Shown here piece after piece: positions 2,131 to 34,169 of a DNA stretch of 64,000 bases; the first letter of the stretch is position 1; each line of letters opens with the position of its first letter. The DNA lies in the NCBI RefSeq assembly GCF_021190955.1, contig NZ_JAIOAO010000005.1:372001-436000 (forward strand), read 5' to 3'. The notes beneath the pieces are model-generated. The model was not told the DNA's origin and ran no database searches. It saw nothing but the letters and a program-made list of their open reading frames with translations. Position numbers and translations under genes: made by a program. This DNA comes from Parachryseolinea silvisoli (GTDB taxonomy: Bacteria > Bacteroidota > Bacteroidia > Cytophagales > Cyclobacteriaceae).

Positions 2131-3069
2131 TCATATCTCGCCGATTTTTTGAAGATGGCCTGTGGGGGTAATCAGCATCAATTTTGACTTCGCTTCCGGC
2201 ACGGTGTATTTCAAACTCATTTGATACGTCAATTGTACCGTCGGCTCGGACACTACCGGATTGACAACCACATCGTATGGGCTGTACGGCACCGCTTCGT
2301 AGTATTTGGACGGTGACGGTTCTACGGAATGAAACTTTCCACTCTCGATGTCATCTTTTTTCATCGCGCTCAGCGAGGGCCTTGATACGGAGCTATAGCT
2401 TCCGTAGCGCGTTTGAGGGAGGACTGTCGCGAAGTCGTCATCAAATACCTTTCGCAGTGTATCCAACCTTATGCCCATGCTTTCGAGATATTTTATGCGG
2501 ACTTTCATCGTCTCCACGCATTGTGTGCGGAGTTGCTCGTAGTGCTTCTTTACATTACTGAGAAAGTAATCCACTTTCACGAGATCGTAGATCTCTGCCT
2601 GGGCAGCGGCTGTCACAATCATATTCAGATCGGACGCGGTGTGATAGGTTATCGTCACGTTTTTTTGCAGTTCGAATCCGTCGGGGACTTCGTTGTAAGT
2701 CCTGCTGAAGACCCTTTTTAACACGCGGATGTCGTATTTGGGTACCAGGGAGATCATATCGGTGTGAACGACCAACGTATCGCGTTGCTGCCGGCGCAAG
2801 GCGGCCCGGAAGCGGTTGATGCGCAAGGTCATGAGTGAATCGACACTGGCGGCGGTCTCCCCTACCTGGGTTACATTAAAGAATGCAACGAAGGTATCGG
2901 CTTTGGCGTTGAGCAGACCGCTAATGGTGAGTGTGATCTGGCCGTCACTGATCACGGCCTGAGGCCGATGCTCCTCCGGTGCCGTCTGATGATAGCGACT
3001 ATTTCCAGAAACCTGAGAGAACAGCGCGGTGCTCGTGCAGATCAGAAGAACGAATAGCATATACTTCAT
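2131..3069 (-). CDS. Exported SIMPL/DUF541-like protein
   Basis: A 312-residue protein with a cleavable signal peptide (MKYMLFVLLICTSTALFSQ). The middle part follows the pattern of SIMPL (DUF541) domains: early beta-strands, a tyrosine-rich segment with a KNVTITYHTASDLNMIV strand near residue 140, then a helix rich in charged residues with a VETMKVRIKYLESMGI segment near 187. SIMPL proteins are periplasmic or membrane-attached and of poorly known function. The C-terminal 100 residues have no recognised domain. The gene stands alone between an unrelated cyclase gene and the GntR/ABC operon. The family call is an inference from pattern and could be wrong. Confidence 0.55.
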   Translation of the reverse strand: MKYMLFVLLICTSTALFSQVSGNSRYHQTAPEEHRPQAVISDGQITLTISGLLNAKADTFVAFFNVTQVGETAASVDSLMTLRINRFRAALRRQQRDTLVVHTDMISLVPKYDIRVLKRVFSRTYNEVPDGFELQKNVTITYHTASDLNMIVTAAAQAEIYDLVKVDYFLSNVKKHYEQLRTQCVETMKVRIKYLESMGIRLDTLRKVFDDDFATVLPQTRYGSYSSVSRPSLSAMKKDDIESGKFHSVEPSPSKYYEAVPYSPYDVVVNPVVSEPTVQLTYQMSLKYTVPEAKSKLMLITPTGHLQKIGEI

Positions 3070-3182
3070 AGCAGTTGAATTTGATAGAGTTCAATACTAT
3101 GAAATGATTAAAGCAATTGCAGCCTGGACTTAGTGAACCCTCCATTTGACTGAGTGAGCACGGTCGGAAAGATGGGCAGGCT

Positions 3183-5099
3183 TCACCCACGTACCCTCTT
3201 CATCAATGCTTCGTACCGTGGATCGACTCTCAATTCTTTGAAAGCGGGGTACTCCAGATATAACGCTGGTGTCGAGGTTCTTTTCTTTAAACTTTCCTCG
3301 ATATAGTAAAAAGCCTTATCAAAGTCACCCAGGCCATACCAAATTCCTGCAAGATCGTTATCTAACACTACGCCGGGTTCTTCCCGTTGACGTTGTTCTA
3401 TTTTGCGAATGCATTCCAATGCTTTTTCACGCTCCCCTAATTTCCCGTATGCGTAACCTACCCCCATCAATCCTTTTAATGGATGGTTTGTGAGGCGATG
3501 TGTTTCTAAAAACAACGGTAGCGCTTTTGCCCATTCGCCTTTCATGCCGGTGCTCCATGCTTTTAATTCGATACTGATGCGCATGGCAGGATCCATGGTC
3601 AGGAGTTTATCGGCCTGAAGAATCGCATCATCATACCGTTCATTCATAACGTAGATATTTCCCAGGTGGTGCGTAATAAACGGTGAGAGTGGATCAAGTT
3701 TGGTGGCTTCTTCCATCACTACGATGGCTTTCTCTTTCTTGCCTACAATAACATAGTAGTAGGCCAGCGATTGATATGCGTTTGTCGCCGTAGGATTAAG
3801 GTGTATGGCTTTTTGTAAGGCATCGTGTGCTTTTTCCCATCTCCACTCATAATACAAATACGCTGCAGCCTTCGCAATGTAGCCTTCGGCAATAGTAGCA
3901 TCCAGGTGCAGGGCTATGTCTGCATGTTTATGAACAAGCTCAAATGCCTTTTGGGGCAACATCTGTCCCGTAGAACCCAGGTGTGTATAGGCACGGGCAA
4001 TCATTGCGTGTGCTTGCGCATAAGAAGGTTCGAGCGTTAGGGCATTTTCAAAATATACAATGGCCTGCCGGGTATCCGCTGGCGTTATTTTATTGAAAGC
4101 ATGAAGGCCTTTAAGATAGAGGGTATACGCTTCAATATTTTTAGTGCCGGTCCTGGACGGGCTTTCAGCGTGATCCGGTGACAAATTCTCCCGGAGCCTA
4201 TTGGCAATGATGTTGCTGATCTCATCCTGTATTTCAAAAATATCTGTGAGATTGCGATCATAGTTCTCACTCCAAATATGATAGCCATCGGCGGCATTAA
4301 TTAACTGCGCCGTTATACGCAGGCGATTTCCCGATTTCCGAACACTTCCTTCCAGTATTTTGTCAACATTCAATTGAACACCGATATCCCGTACGTCGAT
4401 GCTTTTTCCTTTGAAAGCGAAAACAGAAGTTCGCGAAGTCACCTGGATATTGTCTATTTTCGTAAGCGTGTTCAGTATCTCTTCTGTAATTCCATCGCTG
4501 AAGTATTCATTGTCGGGGTCAGCGCTCATATTGACAAAAGGAAGAACGGCAACACGGTTTACGGGCGTCTTCGTCTTTCCTTTTAATGCTGCCCGCGATG
4601 GAACAACAATGCCATCATTCGTAATGGCAAAAACGCAAATCGCTTCTTTTACGTTTTTGAATTCGAAGAAACCCAATTCCAACGTAGTGATATCGTCCTG
4701 GTTTTTAATTTCTTCATATACCTTGCCGGAAATAAGAACGCTGCCTGGTGTAGCGGCCGATTCGATGCGCGACGCTATATTCACGCCATCGCCATAGATG
4801 GATTCGTCTTCCACGCTCACATCACCAATGTGTATGCCGATGCGGACCTCAACACGAGGTTCTTCTTGTAATTGCGTTTGTATTTTTATGCCACAGGATA
4901 CAGCCTGACGGGCGCTGTTGAAAATGACCAGTGAGCCATCGCCATAGTTCTGGAGTATTTTTCCTTCGAAGGTTTGAACGGCGCCTGTCAATATGTCTTT
5001 AAATCGTTTCCGCTTCAACCGGGCAAGTTGTTCGTTTTCCTGCATGATGGCCGTGTACCCGGTAATGTCTGCAAATAGAATGGCTGCCAGTTGACGCAT
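3183..5099 (-). CDS. Class III adenylate cyclase-like protein with TolB-like and TPR domains
   Basis: I start the protein at 5099 (638 residues) because MRQLAAILFADITGYT is the usual first line of this family; the frame is open 32 codons further upstream. Residues 1-170 are a class III nucleotide cyclase domain with metal-binding Asp residues in FADITGY and YGDGSLVIF and the transition-state Asn and Arg in NIASRIE. Residues 190-330 match the TolB-like/FlgO N-terminal domain (FSDGITEEILNTL, KILEGSVRKSG). Residues 340-638 are TPR repeats. There is no membrane segment, so it is probably cytosolic. Such proteins are common in Bacteroidota and rhizobia; ligand and output are unknown. Activity as a cyclase is likely because the catalytic residues are present. 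Confidence 0.88.
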   Translation of the reverse strand: MRQLAAILFADITGYTAIMQENEQLARLKRKRFKDILTGAVQTFEGKILQNYGDGSLVIFNSARQAVSCGIKIQTQLQEEPRVEVRIGIHIGDVSVEDESIYGDGVNIASRIESAATPGSVLISGKVYEEIKNQDDITTLELGFFEFKNVKEAICVFAITNDGIVVPSRAALKGKTKTPVNRVAVLPFVNMSADPDNEYFSDGITEEILNTLTKIDNIQVTSRTSVFAFKGKSIDVRDIGVQLNVDKILEGSVRKSGNRLRITAQLINAADGYHIWSENYDRNLTDIFEIQDEISNIIANRLRENLSPDHAESPSRTGTKNIEAYTLYLKGLHAFNKITPADTRQAIVYFENALTLEPSYAQAHAMIARAYTHLGSTGQMLPQKAFELVHKHADIALHLDATIAEGYIAKAAAYLYYEWRWEKAHDALQKAIHLNPTATNAYQSLAYYYVIVGKKEKAIVVMEEATKLDPLSPFITHHLGNIYVMNERYDDAILQADKLLTMDPAMRISIELKAWSTGMKGEWAKALPLFLETHRLTNHPLKGLMGVGYAYGKLGEREKALECIRKIEQRQREEPGVVLDNDLAGIWYGLGDFDKAFYYIEESLKKRTSTPALYLEYPAFKELRVDPRYEALMKRVRG

Positions 5100-9570: not shown

Positions 9571-9737
9571 TCACTCTGTTTGTTTGTGATAACACAAATT
9601 TCATGATCCTGGCAGATCAGAAAGATGATGTATGTAGCAAAAAAATGTAGATAATTGTCGATAAATTCCCGACGCCGCAGGTGCCACGCTATGCGACGAT
9701 CGATAAATATTTAATCTTAAAAGATACGAGAGGTTTT

Positions 9738-10322
9738 ATGCACAACGCTTTCTTTGACTATCTGAAGAAATTCAGTTCTGAACCGCTTTCAGACGAGGAA
9801 AAGGCACTGATCAGACGGATATTTATTCCGTCCAAATTAAGAAAAAGACAATTTTTACTGCAGGCCGGGGACCAGTGTAAATATTTTGCATTTATCGTAA
9901 AAGGTGCGATGCGGATGTATTCCGTTGATGACGGAGGCGTTGAACACATCGTCCGGCTGGGTATTGAGGACTGGTGGATGGGTGATCGCGAAAGTTTTGT
10001 AGAATTCACGCCAAGCCGCTATCATATCGATGCCTGGGAGCACTGCGAGCTGCTTAATGTCACCCTGGAGGGCACGCTTGAATTGCAGGAAAAAATACCT
10101 GCGTTCTGTACGATGAAAATGAAGCTTGACGAGCGGAATATGATGGCCAACAACCGACGTCTTACCTCCACTATAAGCTCCCTGGCCGATAAGCGTTATA
10201 CCGATTTGGCAGAATGCTATCCTGAACTTATTGAACGTTTTCCGCAGCACATTATCGCATCCTATCTCGGCATCAATAAGGATACGCTGAGCCGTGTCAA
10301 ACGGCAGCACAATCTGAAATAG
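9738..10322 (+). CDS. Crp/Fnr-family transcriptional regulator
   Basis: I use the start at 9738 (MHNAFFDYLKKF, 194 residues); the frame is open 19 codons further up. Residues 20-130 are a cyclic-nucleotide-type beta-roll (ILRRK-like SKLRKRQFLLQAG, VKGAMRMY). The C-terminal helix-turn-helix is IIASYLGINKDTLSRVKRQ. The N-terminal cysteines that bind the Fe-S cluster in true Fnr are absent, so this is the common Bacteroidota type of unknown ligand. It could be the protein that reads the Crp/Fnr-type boxes at 10375, 11688 and 11711, but that link is an inference. An AT-rich hairpin followed by T residues closes the gene. Confidence 0.88.
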   Translation: MHNAFFDYLKKFSSEPLSDEEKALIRRIFIPSKLRKRQFLLQAGDQCKYFAFIVKGAMRMYSVDDGGVEHIVRLGIEDWWMGDRESFVEFTPSRYHIDAWEHCELLNVTLEGTLELQEKIPAFCTMKMKLDERNMMANNRRLTSTISSLADKRYTDLAECYPELIERFPQHIIASYLGINKDTLSRVKRQHNLK

Positions 10323-29395: not shown

Positions 29396-30304
29396 TTAAT
29401 TAAAAGATTGCCTGAATTCCAAAGGTGAAAGATTGGTCTTAGTCTTGAAGAATTTACTAAACGATTGGGGATGTTCAAATCCTAATTGATAGGCTATTTC
29501 ACTGACCGAAAAATCTGTCGTTGAAAGTTTCTCTTTCGCCTTCTCCATCAGTTTGTCATGGATGTGTTGTTGCGTACTTTGTCCTGTTAACGATTTTAGC
29601 AAGTTGCTTAAATAGCTTGATGAAACATTTAATGTGTCTGCAATGTATTGAACAGATGGCAATCCCTTTGTTACCAAATCATCACTATTGAAATAGTCCG
29701 AAAGCAGTTCTTCCAAACGATTGAGAATTTGGTGATTTGATTTTTTCCGAGTGATGAACTGACGATTATAAAAACGTTCGGCATAGCTCAGTAAGGTTTC
29801 CAAATGAGCAATGATGATGTTCTGACTAAAGCTATCAATGTTTGAGTGGTATTCATGCTTAATATTCTCAATGATCTCATTCATGACAGCCTCTTCTTTA
29901 TCCGAAAGGAATAACGCTTCGTTTGTAGAATAATGAAAATACTCGTACTGTTTAATCTTCTTTGCAAGGGTTGTATCCCACAAAAAATCGGGATGGATGA
30001 ATAGCATCCATCCTTCGAGGTTGTCAGGCACTCCGTTTTCCTCCCCGCGCAAAATCTGTCCAGGCGACATAAAAGCCATCAGTCCTTCGTCAAAATCATA
30101 TTTCTGTTGGCCGTAAAAAAGATTGTCGCAGCCTCTCTTCATCGATACAACATAAAGGTCGAACGTAACGGCCTTGATATTCGGATCATTTTTCAATCCT
30201 TTAAGATCAATGATACCGATAAGCGGATGATGTGGCTTTGGAAGCTCCATCAACCGGTGTATTTCCGCGATGGATTGTATTCTGTATGGTTTTGTATTTG
30301 CCAT
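29396..30304 (-). CDS. AraC-family transcriptional regulator
   Basis: A 302-residue regulator. The N-terminal cupin-like part (residues 20-150, GLMAFMSPGQILRGEE) is of the AraC_binding type; the C-terminal 100 residues hold two HTH motifs (SVQYIADTLNVSSSYLSNLLKSLTG and SVSEIAYQLGFEHPQSFSKFF). It is the last gene after SDR and DoxX-like genes (gaps of 13 and 44 bases), and all three look richer in A+T than the flanks. It may control its own operon and the SDR gene downstream. Confidence 0.92.
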   Translation of the reverse strand: MANTKPYRIQSIAEIHRLMELPKPHHPLIGIIDLKGLKNDPNIKAVTFDLYVVSMKRGCDNLFYGQQKYDFDEGLMAFMSPGQILRGEENGVPDNLEGWMLFIHPDFLWDTTLAKKIKQYEYFHYSTNEALFLSDKEEAVMNEIIENIKHEYHSNIDSFSQNIIIAHLETLLSYAERFYNRQFITRKKSNHQILNRLEELLSDYFNSDDLVTKGLPSVQYIADTLNVSSSYLSNLLKSLTGQSTQQHIHDKLMEKAKEKLSTTDFSVSEIAYQLGFEHPQSFSKFFKTKTNLSPLEFRQSFN

Positions 30305-30724: not shown

Positions 30725-31510
30725 TTAACTTTTTTGACTATTCAAGTTTTTAAATTTCTCAAATTCTCTATGGCCTACATTCATAATGAATTCAGGTGCA
30801 ATTCTGCTTACGAATTTTACAATAGCCGTTAAGCCCGGTTTGATTTCCAATTTGTCTTTCAAAAGGCCTTTAATAGCAGCGCTTACCATCCTATCTACAT
30901 CCATCATCTGGCCTGGGTTAGGTTTTAACACCCAGTCATTTTGGAGATTCGTATTAACGCCGGGCGGTATCACTTCAAATACTTTTACATTTGTCTTCTC
31001 AAGTTGCAGACGCAACGCTTTTGTATAAGCGTGAACTCCTGATTTTGAAGCACTGTAGACAGGCGCCGAAGAATAGGGCATAAAAGCAATAGCGGATGAA
31101 ACATTTACAATCGCAGCTGATTTGGCTTTTAACAAATGTGGCAAAAACCGATGCACCATTTGGATTGTACCTGAAAGATTGGCATTGATTTCACAGGTAA
31201 TATTTTCCAAGCTCAGTTCGGCGTCCCGCAAGTCTATTAGACGCATTTGTCCTGCGTTGTTAATGATCATGTTTAAATTGGGAAACGCCTCTGTGACTTG
31301 CGCATAAAGTTGTTCAATGTCATTCGGTTCGCTTACATCGCTTTGAAAGATCTGAATTTTCGGAAATTGCTTTTTTGCCTGTTCCAGCTTGAAAATATCT
31401 CTACCTGTAATAACGATGTTCGCCCCATGGTCAATGAGTTGTTTTACAAACTCTAAACCAATTCCGCTTGTTCCGCCGGTTATCAGGATTGTGCTGTTTT
31501 TTAATTCCAT
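30725..31510 (-). CDS. SDR-family oxidoreductase (DltE-like)
   Basis: A 261-residue SDR with TGGTSGIG (11-18), NNAG near 84, Ser139, Tyr152 and Lys156 (YSASKSG). The FxVIPPGVNTNLQNDW segment places it in the DltE/YciK-like group with a C-terminal extension. It is the first gene of a three-gene operon with the DoxX-like and AraC genes. Confidence 0.9.
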   Translation of the reverse strand: MELKNSTILITGGTSGIGLEFVKQLIDHGANIVITGRDIFKLEQAKKQFPKIQIFQSDVSEPNDIEQLYAQVTEAFPNLNMIINNAGQMRLIDLRDAELSLENITCEINANLSGTIQMVHRFLPHLLKAKSAAIVNVSSAIAFMPYSSAPVYSASKSGVHAYTKALRLQLEKTNVKVFEVIPPGVNTNLQNDWVLKPNPGQMMDVDRMVSAAIKGLLKDKLEIKPGLTAIVKFVSRIAPEFIMNVGHREFEKFKNLNSQKS

Positions 31511-31782
31511 TTCTTTTAGAATTATTTATGAATGTCCGTTGCAAAAATTCTACCCTTTAAGTTTCCAATGACTGGGCGGCTGCTAAAACACCGAACATGC
31601 TTAAGATTGGTGTACGTGTTATATCGTGGTGCCTTTTTACGAATTCCCATCTTTGTGTTTTTGTTGTACAAAGTTGGAATGTATCCAGGCAGCGGACTTA
31701 GCCGAATCTACTTTTGTTGTAGCCTAATTTGTTCGTCGTATTTATGCGCCGGCAACACATATTTCACTACCAAAACGCATCG

Positions 31783-31829
31783 ATTTTCACTTAAGTGAAA
31801 ATTTAGCGTGAGGATTGCACAGACCTTTG
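31783..31829 (+). promoter_or_regulatory. msrB promoter with perfect 20-bp palindrome
   Basis: ATTTTCACTTAAGTGAAAAT (31783-31802) is a perfect palindrome. Exactly 19 bases later lies GACCTTTG (31822-31829), a near match to TAnnTTTG, giving a start near 31832. The same pair with the same spacing occurs before the DUF308-like gene. The rest of the 31511-31872 gap (362 bases) contains no gene I can support. Confidence 0.7.
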
Positions 31830-31872
31830 ATGCGATAAATCAAGTGTCATTTCTTTTAAAAATTATTAAACC

Positions 31873-32394
31873 ATGAATAAAGCTATTCTATATACCACGA
31901 CATTGCTGCTGATCGCATTAAACGGCTTCGCCCAAAATGAAAAATCAGTCCGTGGTCACGAGAACAATCCGTGGTATTCAACTACAGATACGACCCGGTT
32001 GCAGGTAAGCAATACAGAGTGGAAAAAGGTGCTTTCCGCCGATCTGTATGCTGTTGCACGGGAAAAGGATACAGAGCGCCCGTTTACCGGACAATATTGG
32101 AAGAGCACAACCCGGGGCACCTACTATTGTGCCGTCTGTGGCAACCTGTTGTTCCGGTCTGATAGCAAGTTTGCCAGTACCTGTGGCTGGCCCAGCTTCT
32201 ACGAGCCAGGCCGGATAACAGCCGTTCGCTATCAATCGGATGATTCAGAGGGGATGCTGCGAACGGAGGTGTTATGCGGCCGTTGTGATTCCCACCTCGG
32301 TCACATCTTTGACGACGGGCCACCGCCTACCCATAAACGGTTTTGTATGAATTCCATTTCACTGGACTTTGAGCCGGATGGCAAAAAGCATTGA
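31873..32394 (+). CDS. msrB: Exported peptide-methionine (R)-S-oxide reductase
   Basis: A 173-residue MsrB with a signal peptide (residues 1-20, cleavage after NGFA). Zinc-binding pairs Cys86/Cys89 and Cys135/Cys138 and the resolving Cys104 (ASTCGWPSF) surround the catalytic Cys158 in RFCMNS, so it is the zinc-containing, two-cysteine type. It repairs oxidised methionine in periplasmic proteins. A palindromic operator shared with the next gene marks it as part of a small regulon. The regulator is not in the window. Confidence 0.95.
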   Translation: MNKAILYTTTLLLIALNGFAQNEKSVRGHENNPWYSTTDTTRLQVSNTEWKKVLSADLYAVAREKDTERPFTGQYWKSTTRGTYYCAVCGNLLFRSDSKFASTCGWPSFYEPGRITAVRYQSDDSEGMLRTEVLCGRCDSHLGHIFDDGPPPTHKRFCMNSISLDFEPDGKKH

Positions 32395-32422
32395 GGCCAA
32401 GCCGGCGTAACATTTTCCAGCA

Positions 32423-32469
32423 ATTTTAACTTAAGTGAAAATCAGACAACGTGGAAATCGGGAACTTTG
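32423..32469 (+). promoter_or_regulatory. Second copy of the palindromic promoter, before the DUF308-like gene
   Basis: ATTTTAACTTAAGTGAAAAT (32423-32442) differs by one base from the msrB palindrome. GAACTTTG (32462-32469) again follows after 19 bases, giving a leader of about 22 bases. It begins 29 bases after the msrB stop, so the two genes have separate but equally built promoters. Confidence 0.7.
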
Positions 32470-32494
32470 CCCCAACAATCAAAATCATCAGATC

Positions 32495-33104: not shown

Positions 33105-33126
33105 ATGCCGGCGGCCGGCATTTTTT
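33105..33126 (+). terminator. Intrinsic terminator after the DUF308-like gene
   Basis: ATGCCGGC (33105-33112) and GCCGGCAT (33114-33121) form a GC-rich stem followed by TTTTTT. It lies 22 bases after the stop and before the next plus-strand gene. Confidence 0.8.
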
Positions 33127-33170: not shown

Positions 33171-34169
33171 ATGAAATTTAAAATTATAGTAGTCGTCATG
33201 CTGTTAAGCAGCGCCTGCGCCTATGCACAAAATATGTTCAATATGTCCAGCCTTCCTCCGGCTGACACAATGCGGGAAGAAGCTCAGGAACTGGCTATTC
33301 GTTACCCCTCTCTCCGTCAGGTCTCGATCACTGCCAGTATTTTTGGTTCTGGGACTTTCGACTCAGACTTACATGAAAAGTCTTTTGCCAGCGGCAAAAG
33401 CCAGAACGCACGTATCAGTTCCTTTTTCGCGATACCCATAACCCAGTGGAACGGCAACGTGATCAGCGCCACGATTTACCATAATCAACAGTTTTTTAAC
33501 GTAAGCGAGGTGAATAATCCGTTACCTGGAACGCCGGTGAGCAATGGTGATTTCAACGAAAGCACACTTGGCTTATCGCTCAACTTTTCGAGAACCGATG
33601 CCATTTTCCATACACCAGTAGTATACTCTGCTGTCTTCACCGCCATCTCCGATAATTTGAAAAGCGTAAAACGATTCAACTTTAATGGCAGTATAGTCTT
33701 TCCATTAAAGCATACGGCGGATGTTTCTCTTTCTTTGGGGGCATTGGTCCAGATCGATCCTTCTGCTCCGTTTCCGGTACTACCCCTTGTTAACTATTAC
33801 CGGCGATTGACCAACACCGGGTTACACCTGATACTCGATTTGCCACAAAGCGTGACATTGAAGCAGCCCGTATCAAAAAATGCCTGGATCTATGTTGGAA
33901 GTACAGCCAATACCTTCACGTCGTTTTATCGACCGAACAACCCGTCACTGCCTGAGCATTTTAGCTATAATACCATTGAGTTTAAAAGCGGGCCGGGAGT
34001 TGAATATCTCTTCGGAAAATTCCTGATGTTGGGCATCAGCGGTGGTATCAATACGATCGCTTCGGCCGCCTTCATTGCAAAAGCGGATCAGTACCATGAT
34101 GCGTTCGTGAAGAATACAAACAAGGCTTCGCCTTATGGCGAGCTTCGGATCTCACTGTTGCCGTTTTGA
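33171..34169 (+). CDS. Exported beta-barrel-like protein of unknown function
   Basis: A 332-residue protein with a signal peptide (cleaved near residue 20, ACAYAQ). The rest alternates short hydrophobic strands and turns, with a C-terminal strand ending in a phenylalanine (LRISLLPF), as in outer-membrane beta-barrels. It resembles the DUF6268-type OMP-like proteins of Bacteroidota, but I cannot confirm this. It is convergent with the last gene of the polysaccharide locus, six bases away. Confidence 0.65.
   Translation: MKFKIIVVVMLLSSACAYAQNMFNMSSLPPADTMREEAQELAIRYPSLRQVSITASIFGSGTFDSDLHEKSFASGKSQNARISSFFAIPITQWNGNVISATIYHNQQFFNVSEVNNPLPGTPVSNGDFNESTLGLSLNFSRTDAIFHTPVVYSAVFTAISDNLKSVKRFNFNGSIVFPLKHTADVSLSLGALVQIDPSAPFPVLPLVNYYRRLTNTGLHLILDLPQSVTLKQPVSKNAWIYVGSTANTFTSFYRPNNPSLPEHFSYNTIEFKSGPGVEYLFGKFLMLGISGGINTIASAAFIAKADQYHDAFVKNTNKASPYGELRISLLPF

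Follow-up and report, generated by a model that had tools for sequence, protein, structure and literature searches.

The window, a 64,000-nucleotide stretch of the Parachryseolinea silvisoli genome, contains a gene for a methionine-R-sulfoxide reductase of the MsrB type followed by a gene for a membrane protein of the DUF308 family, each preceded by a 20-bp palindrome and a −7 promoter box (Table 1). An earlier note on this DNA had described the palindrome as perfect before msrB and as having one mismatch before the DUF308-like gene, with 19 nt and a GAnnTTTG element following in both cases and 640 bp between the two promoters, and the coordinates confirm this description. If the −7 box spans −12 to −5, the predicted transcription start (+1) of msrB lies near 31834 and that of the DUF308-like gene near 32474. 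The N-terminus of the msrB product resembles a signal peptide as judged by eye. The 332-aa product of orf332, farther downstream, gave no match to Pfam; the gene is possibly associated with the regulon described below, given that its homologues occur in the same clusters and that one of them, at locus L113, has a site of its own. Matches to the hairpin-plus-T-run consensus, by which the terminator-like feature was found, number 5 in the region against 2.0 expected.

Table 1. Promoter elements and genes at the msrB locus, with the candidate regulator gene. Positions are those of the window unless a contig is named.
Feature	Position	Strand	Remarks
Site 1, ATTTTCACTTAAGTGAAAAT	31783-31802		Perfect 20-bp palindrome; half-sites TTCAC / GTGAA; centre 31792.5; upstream of msrB
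−7 box, GACCTTTG	31822-31829	+	19 nt past site 1
msrB, methionine-R-sulfoxide reductase, 173 aa	31873-32394	+	PF01641 (SelR/MsrB), 2.1e-47; TIGR00357 above cut-off
Site 2, ATTTTAACTTAAGTGAAAAT	32423-32442		20-bp palindrome with one mismatch; half-sites TTAAC / GTGAA; upstream of the DUF308-like gene
−7 box, GAACTTTG	32462-32469	+	19 nt past site 2
DUF308-family membrane protein, 195 aa	32495-33082	+	PF03729, 26.6 bits, cut-off 25
Terminator-like hairpin and T run	33105-33121	+	3' of the DUF308-like gene; consensus match alone
orf332, 332-aa protein	33171-34169	+	Signal-peptide-like N-terminus (by eye)
P0001, 195-aa Crp/Fnr-family protein	C5:1490882-1491466		Same genome, outside the window

The two palindromes are the sole matches to the motif at three or fewer mismatches in the 64 kb, against a mean of 0.01 in 100 dinucleotide shuffles, and the 19-nt spacers behind them are dissimilar. 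Only site 1 has TTTA just 3' of the palindrome (31802-31805), a weak candidate for a −33 element. On the minus strand (31756-31802), facing the SDR gene at 30725-31510, site 1 has a weak −7-like sequence, GAAATATG, at nearly the same spacing; two-way matches were likewise seen for palindromes in G002 C112 and in G507, and site 1 is possibly bidirectional. An AraC gene (29396-30304, minus strand) lies near the window sites as well. Its 60% identical paralogue, at positions 3640-4551 (+) of locus L142, is directly upstream of the pair of membrane protein and regulator genes on contig C5 described next, and further AraC genes stand behind a few sites in relatives.

Throughout the 7.95-Mb genome (13 contigs), the palindrome occurs at three places at three or fewer mismatches (0, 1 and 2 mismatches). 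This count is weak evidence alone, because a backward-read control yields similar matches in the same genome (two forward and two reverse), and it is the position and neighbors of the third copy that carry weight. The earlier note had proposed that the regulator gene be sought beside a further copy of the palindrome, and that approach succeeded: the third copy, on contig C5, lies upstream of the Crp/Fnr-family gene P0001, with 19 nt between it and GAAATTCG. When core and −7 box were combined in one pattern and one mismatch was allowed, a further site emerged before the gene for a 161-aa membrane protein immediately upstream of P0001. A pattern with a free centre, which gave 16 matches against 11 control matches over seven genomes, detected, on contig C8, an operon in which OsmC is joined by a second regulator (TTTCACCCAGGTGAAAAT, 19 nt, CATGTTTG), and the CCAG-centred site of this C8 type is also present in genome G002. 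The P. silvisoli genome thus holds four TTAA-centred sites and one CCAG-centred site in total. A match on C7 at one mismatch has TTGAC half-sites and lies upstream of another Crp-like gene.

P0001 contains an N-terminal domain of the cNMP-binding type (PF00027, 31.5 bits against a cut-off of 27.5, residues 33-122). No Crp-type helix-turn-helix model of Pfam matched it at E ≤ 0.1; residues 7-192 align to PDB 3dn7 (phmmer, E 5.3e-24), and its SLSRIRK helix aligns with the recognition helices of other Crp/Fnr proteins. The window has a Crp/Fnr paralogue of its own (9720-10307, +, PF00027), which was rejected as the regulator because no copy of the site lies near it in the window. This protein shares 26% identity with P0001 across 184 aa, and its helix, NKDTLSR, is not of the Pro class defined below.

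We collected 55 loci that encode relatives of P0001, with 69-82% identity in the best segment; they come from Chitinophaga, Niastella, Taibaiella, Pedobacter, Mucilaginibacter, Dyadobacter, Larkinella, and other genera, and sites accompany them. In these loci, which are related by descent and whose counts are to be read with that in mind, the core TTnACTTAAGTnAA has 75 exact matches and 99 at up to one mismatch, whereas 14 shuffled palindromic controls gave 0-2 and 0-10, respectively. At least one core match at up to one mismatch was found in 53 of the 55 loci, compared with 1 of 22 paralogue loci (32-44% identity) over a comparable stretch around the gene. One of the two loci that lack a core match, L098, has a site with an altered centre, 19 nt from CAACTTTG, once the four centre bases are left free; the other, L123, has an orthologue, and leaving the centre free revealed no site there. 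Palindrome and −7 box are conserved across the set, while the 19-nt spacer scarcely is (at most 0.44 bits per column). The Dyadobacter loci (L085, L091-L094, L102, L108, L115, L117, and L118) mostly have TTAGG/CCTAA as site centre, L092 having an unchanged copy as well and L091 a copy with CTAAAG.

The association between motif and regulator was also apparent across whole genomes. In a family set of 245 genomes, with no more than one mismatch allowed, the combined motif was present in 8/8 genomes with an orthologue (at least 71% identity; partial in G206) and in 27/237 without, at 49 places against 9 for the control. A post hoc restriction to GT(G/T)AAA flanks turns these figures into 8/8 and 0/237, and the unrefined 27/237 is the figure we report. 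Among 395 genomes of a phylum set, the extended motif was found in all three with an orthologue (E ≤ 1e-60, the P. silvisoli genome included), compared with 11 of the 392 without, and in the two new orthologue genomes no more than about 200 bp separate a copy from the orthologue. The 11 genomes without an orthologue hold 12 places, which is control level (11), and 6 of the 11 have a TTGA-type site. Only matches at up to one mismatch carry weight, because looser patterns were no commoner than their controls. The combined pattern at up to three mismatches was discarded on this ground (48 matches against 96 for the control in seven genomes of the genus), and the bare 16-mer TTTnACTTAAGTnAAA failed as a genome marker, being found in 11 of 59 relatives, as was its backward control. 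Nor can the core motif serve to mark a P0001-type regulator alone, as paralogues use TTAACTTAAGTCAATG-like sites with the same spacing.

In the 55 loci we counted the genes behind the sites. Homologues had to reach E ≤ 1e-15 and cover 60% or more of the query; a site had to lie no more than 230 nt upstream and contain at most one mismatch, and a −7 box had to match at least five of six bases at +19. DUF308 homologues occur in 42 of the 55 loci, and site, 19-nt spacing, and −7 box precede 41 of these 42; site and −7 box precede all seven homologues of the 161-aa membrane protein, all seven of OsmC, and three of four of msrB; the fourth msrB, in L113, has its start at base 2, and the DNA upstream of it falls outside the locus. 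The regulator gene itself is preceded by a site in 36/55 loci, and by a site with a good −7 box at +19 in 24/55, which rules out autoregulation as a universal rule. Homologues of orf332 are present in 5 of the 55 loci, with site and −7 box in one of the five (L113). None of the four AraC homologues has site and −7 box, the lone thioredoxin homologue has no site, and no homologue of the G002 peroxiredoxin reached the threshold in these loci; the peroxiredoxin was consequently dropped as a target within this set. In L109 and L135, msrB, DUF308, orf332, and the regulator gene are consecutive, and all but orf332 have a site in front; each of these clusters corresponds to that of the window with the regulator gene added. 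In G002, a run of peroxiredoxin, thioredoxin, and msrB genes stands behind a site with GACCTTTA as −7 box, and the genes for DUF308 and the regulator lie next to each other in convergent orientation, each with a site of its own, the regulator's having TATTTTTG at 18 nt, not 19. This recurrence in other genomes (core matches, DUF308 homologues, and the L109 and L135 clusters) lends support to the claim of the earlier note that msrB and the DUF308-like gene belong to a small regulon.

The promoters share a fixed architecture. Of 158 site-orientation rows we kept 109, those in which an ORF of 120 aa or more begins no farther than 120 nt away, and dropped the other 49. In these 109, GAnnTTTG, at five or more of six bases, is found at offset 19 in 89 and at no other offset from 8 to 44 in more than four. 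At the first base of the −7 box, 61% have G and 17% have T. TTTG was found 17-25 nt upstream of the −7 box in none of the 109, and these promoters therefore have no −33 element of the TTTG form. G at the first −7 base together with the lack of TTTG would fit activator-dependent promoters. At E. coli class II promoters, the dimer site of CRP or FNR is centred at −41.5. In Flavobacterium psychrophilum, the sigma-A box TAnnTTTG is reported at −12 to −5 (PMC9723704); the palindrome centre lies 29.5 nt before the start of the box, and on that numbering it is therefore placed at −41.5. The predicted promoters would thus match class II promoters in their centre at −41.5 and in the constant 19-nt spacing to the core promoter.

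A second link between sites and regulators comes from the recognition helix. The site form at the orthologue loci, where it is enriched, is TTnAC-TTAA-GTnAA, which conforms to the Crp/Fnr type TTnnn-N4-nnnAA. A comparative study from 2005 reported that residue 181 correlates with a half-site base, Pro181 occurring with GTAAC and Gln181 with TTAAC (PMC1274295). We tabulated 23 helices, from L028 and from the 22 of 29 new family-set loci that have a Crp/Fnr frame in the 3-kb locus; 10 of 33 input loci were dropped for want of such a frame past 1e-6, among them L050, which has a 240-aa product that looks Crp-like by eye. Residue 184, equated with CRP Glu181 by eye from the helix alignment, is Glu in 14 rows, and all 14 have a TTGA half-site; none of the nine rows with Gln (five) or Pro (four) has one, all being TTCAC or TTAAC, the rows not being independent by descent. 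Base 3 of the half-site was N in the search pattern and was therefore not selected by the search. P0001 has Pro at 184, paralogues have Glu or Gln, and four of the 22 tabulated Crp/Fnr frames are P0001 orthologues. In many rows the site lies 3' of the regulator's end rather than upstream of the gene, and in L150 and L166 some 1.1 and 0.7 kb, respectively, separate the Crp/Fnr gene from the site.

A sister branch consists of four Pro-class paralogue loci, on C8 of P. silvisoli, on C35 of G002, and at L059 and L060, in which half-sites and spacing are kept and the centre is of the CCAG or CTGG type, differing from the TTAA of the P0001 branch. The −7 boxes at 19 nt are CATGTTTG on C8 and on G002 C35, TAGGTTTG in L059, and CAGCTTTG in L060. 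At L059 and L060, whose paralogues are at 41-44% identity, the centres read CCTGGG and CCCAGG and the spacing is unchanged. The two kinds of centre may possibly reflect a split in specificity after duplication. On C8 (L136, positions 2960-4062; compare L137, L059, and L060) the regulator gene follows an OsmC gene. Other Crp/Fnr paralogues, at L149-L151, L158-L170, L172, and L173, are accompanied by TTAACTTAAGTCAATG-like, TTCAC, or TTGAC sites with 19-nt spacing, in many cases between the 3' end of the regulator and the next gene, and these sites apparently belong to several parallel, unnamed regulons.

CRP proteins that respond to cAMP carry the phosphate-binding motif GELG...R(S/T)A. A motif of the form GELG...RxA was not seen by eye in the consensus ENQFVVSFRSFI, and P0001 scores 18 bits against the NCBIfam CRP model, the cut-off of which is 266; the signal for P0001 is thus probably not cAMP. 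The oxygen-sensing FNR subfamily has an iron-sulfur cysteine cluster near the N-terminus, and P0001 lacks such a cluster, its cysteines being Cys48 and Cys95 alone. When 50 of the 55 orthologues were aligned with P0001 (five without the FFNMQ anchor were left out), all 51 sequences had Cys48 and 50 had Cys95, the remaining one having a gap there. Cys95 is also Cys in the four rows of Pro-class paralogues, the C8 paralogue combining the Pro184 helix class with both cysteines, and is another residue in the remaining 20 rows of the paralogue alignment. A thiol switch is therefore possible, and P0001 may act through Cys48 and Cys95 in this way or independently of a ligand, as the Crp homologue CrpPg of Porphyromonas gingivalis is reported to do (PMC12040651).

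The window palindromes are very probably the sites of P0001 as a dimeric Crp/Fnr regulator, most likely one that activates in the class II manner. The dimer, centred at −41.5, would replace the −33 element and would contact RNA polymerase where the −7 box is weak (GAnnTTTG, not TAnnTTTG). It would thereby switch on msrB, the DUF308-like gene, the 161-aa membrane protein gene, and its own gene, and in relatives the orthologues would also switch on OsmC and the run of peroxiredoxin, thioredoxin, and msrB. The sequences themselves show the sites, the constancy of their spacing, the genes that follow, the link with this regulator, and the covariation with its recognition helix; from these we infer that P0001 binds, that it activates and does not repress, and that it serves the repair of oxidative or electrophile damage. 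More tentatively, and as a conjecture we hold more doubtful than probable, a distinct ‘Pro184’ subfamily of Crp/Fnr proteins in Bacteroidota might sense oxidants or electrophiles directly through a Cys48-Cys95 thiol switch and serve as class II activator of a dedicated envelope repair regulon (exported MsrB, peroxiredoxin-thioredoxin, OsmC, DUF308, and the 161-aa membrane protein), a sister branch having shifted to CCAG centres with the same spacing.

Repressors usually tolerate varied positions of their sites, and this bears on the alternative that P0001 represses, its dimer lying over the −33 region and blocking RNA polymerase until released by oxidants or electrophiles. A site over the −33 region is capable of repression too, the TTTA behind site 1 is at least a weak −33 candidate, and the authors of the study on CrpPg of Porphyromonas gingivalis assume a possible repressor role for that protein (PMC12040651). 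Against this, the exact 19-nt spacing, the centre at −41.5, the absence of TTTG, and the frequent G for T all resemble activator-dependent promoters, and we regard repression as unlikely. The C8 paralogue, which is 61% identical to P0001 and encoded behind OsmC, could share the window sites but is decidedly unlikely to be their main binder. It shares the Pro184 class and both cysteines, and its operon has a TTCAC-CCAG-GTGAA site 19 nt from its −7 box; however, the centre of its own site and those of the L059 and L060 sites differ from that of the window sites, and TTAA-centred sites are found at the C5 gene and at its orthologues, including those of G003 and G005, where only the orthologue was detected.

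Regulators of the HxlR, MarR, or PadR type can control oxidant defence, and an operator for one of them, as the earlier note envisaged, would suit an AT-rich palindrome near redox genes. That part of the note found no support and is highly improbable: the site accompanies a Crp/Fnr gene, it has the TTnAC-N4-GTnAA form, base 3 of its half-site tracks the Crp/Fnr recognition helix, and its centre would fall at −41.5, all of which argue for the regulon of a Crp/Fnr subfamily instead. Chance similarity, or recent duplication of promoter DNA between sites only 640 bp apart, is of negligible probability, as next to no window matches are expected by chance, the two spacers are dissimilar, and the layout recurs in other genera with a spacer that is scarcely conserved. 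With P0001 as the favored regulator, an orphan palindrome becomes a regulator-site pair open to direct testing, and the DUF308 and 161-aa membrane proteins, otherwise uninformative, are tied to antioxidant genes. The covariation of residue 184 with base 3 of the half-site offers a means of matching orphan Crp/Fnr paralogues to their sites.

A term search of open-access PMC full texts found no description of the P0001 regulon, which leaves room for an account in subscription journals or regulon databases; the family itself is well known, and the regulon and the subfamily are apparently undescribed. The only solved sequence related to P0001 at E ≤ 0.01 is that of PDB 3dn7, a cyclic nucleotide binding regulatory protein, whose helix, TPEYLSEIRK, is of the Glu class, whereas that of P0001 is of the Pro class. 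P0001 is comparable by description with two Crp-family proteins reported to bind DNA without cAMP, CrpPg of P. gingivalis (PMC12040651) and DdrI of Deinococcus radiodurans (PMC11253593); the term ‘msr’ is absent from the main text of the CrpPg paper. In the 2005 study (PMC1274295), HcpR2 combines Pro181 with GTAACnnnnGTTAC and NssR combines Gln181 with TTAACnnnnGTTAA, whereas here Pro184, the counterpart of residue 181 by eye, goes with TT(A/C)AC-TTAA-GT(G/T)AA. NssR is described in that study as controlling a globin gene in nitrosative stress, and the genes behind the present sites are msrB, OsmC, DUF308, and others. With the class II CRP and FNR promoters of E. coli, the predicted promoters have in common a dimer centre at −41.5, and they differ in the core element, which is a −10 box of the TATAAT form there and a −7 box of the Bacteroidota type here.
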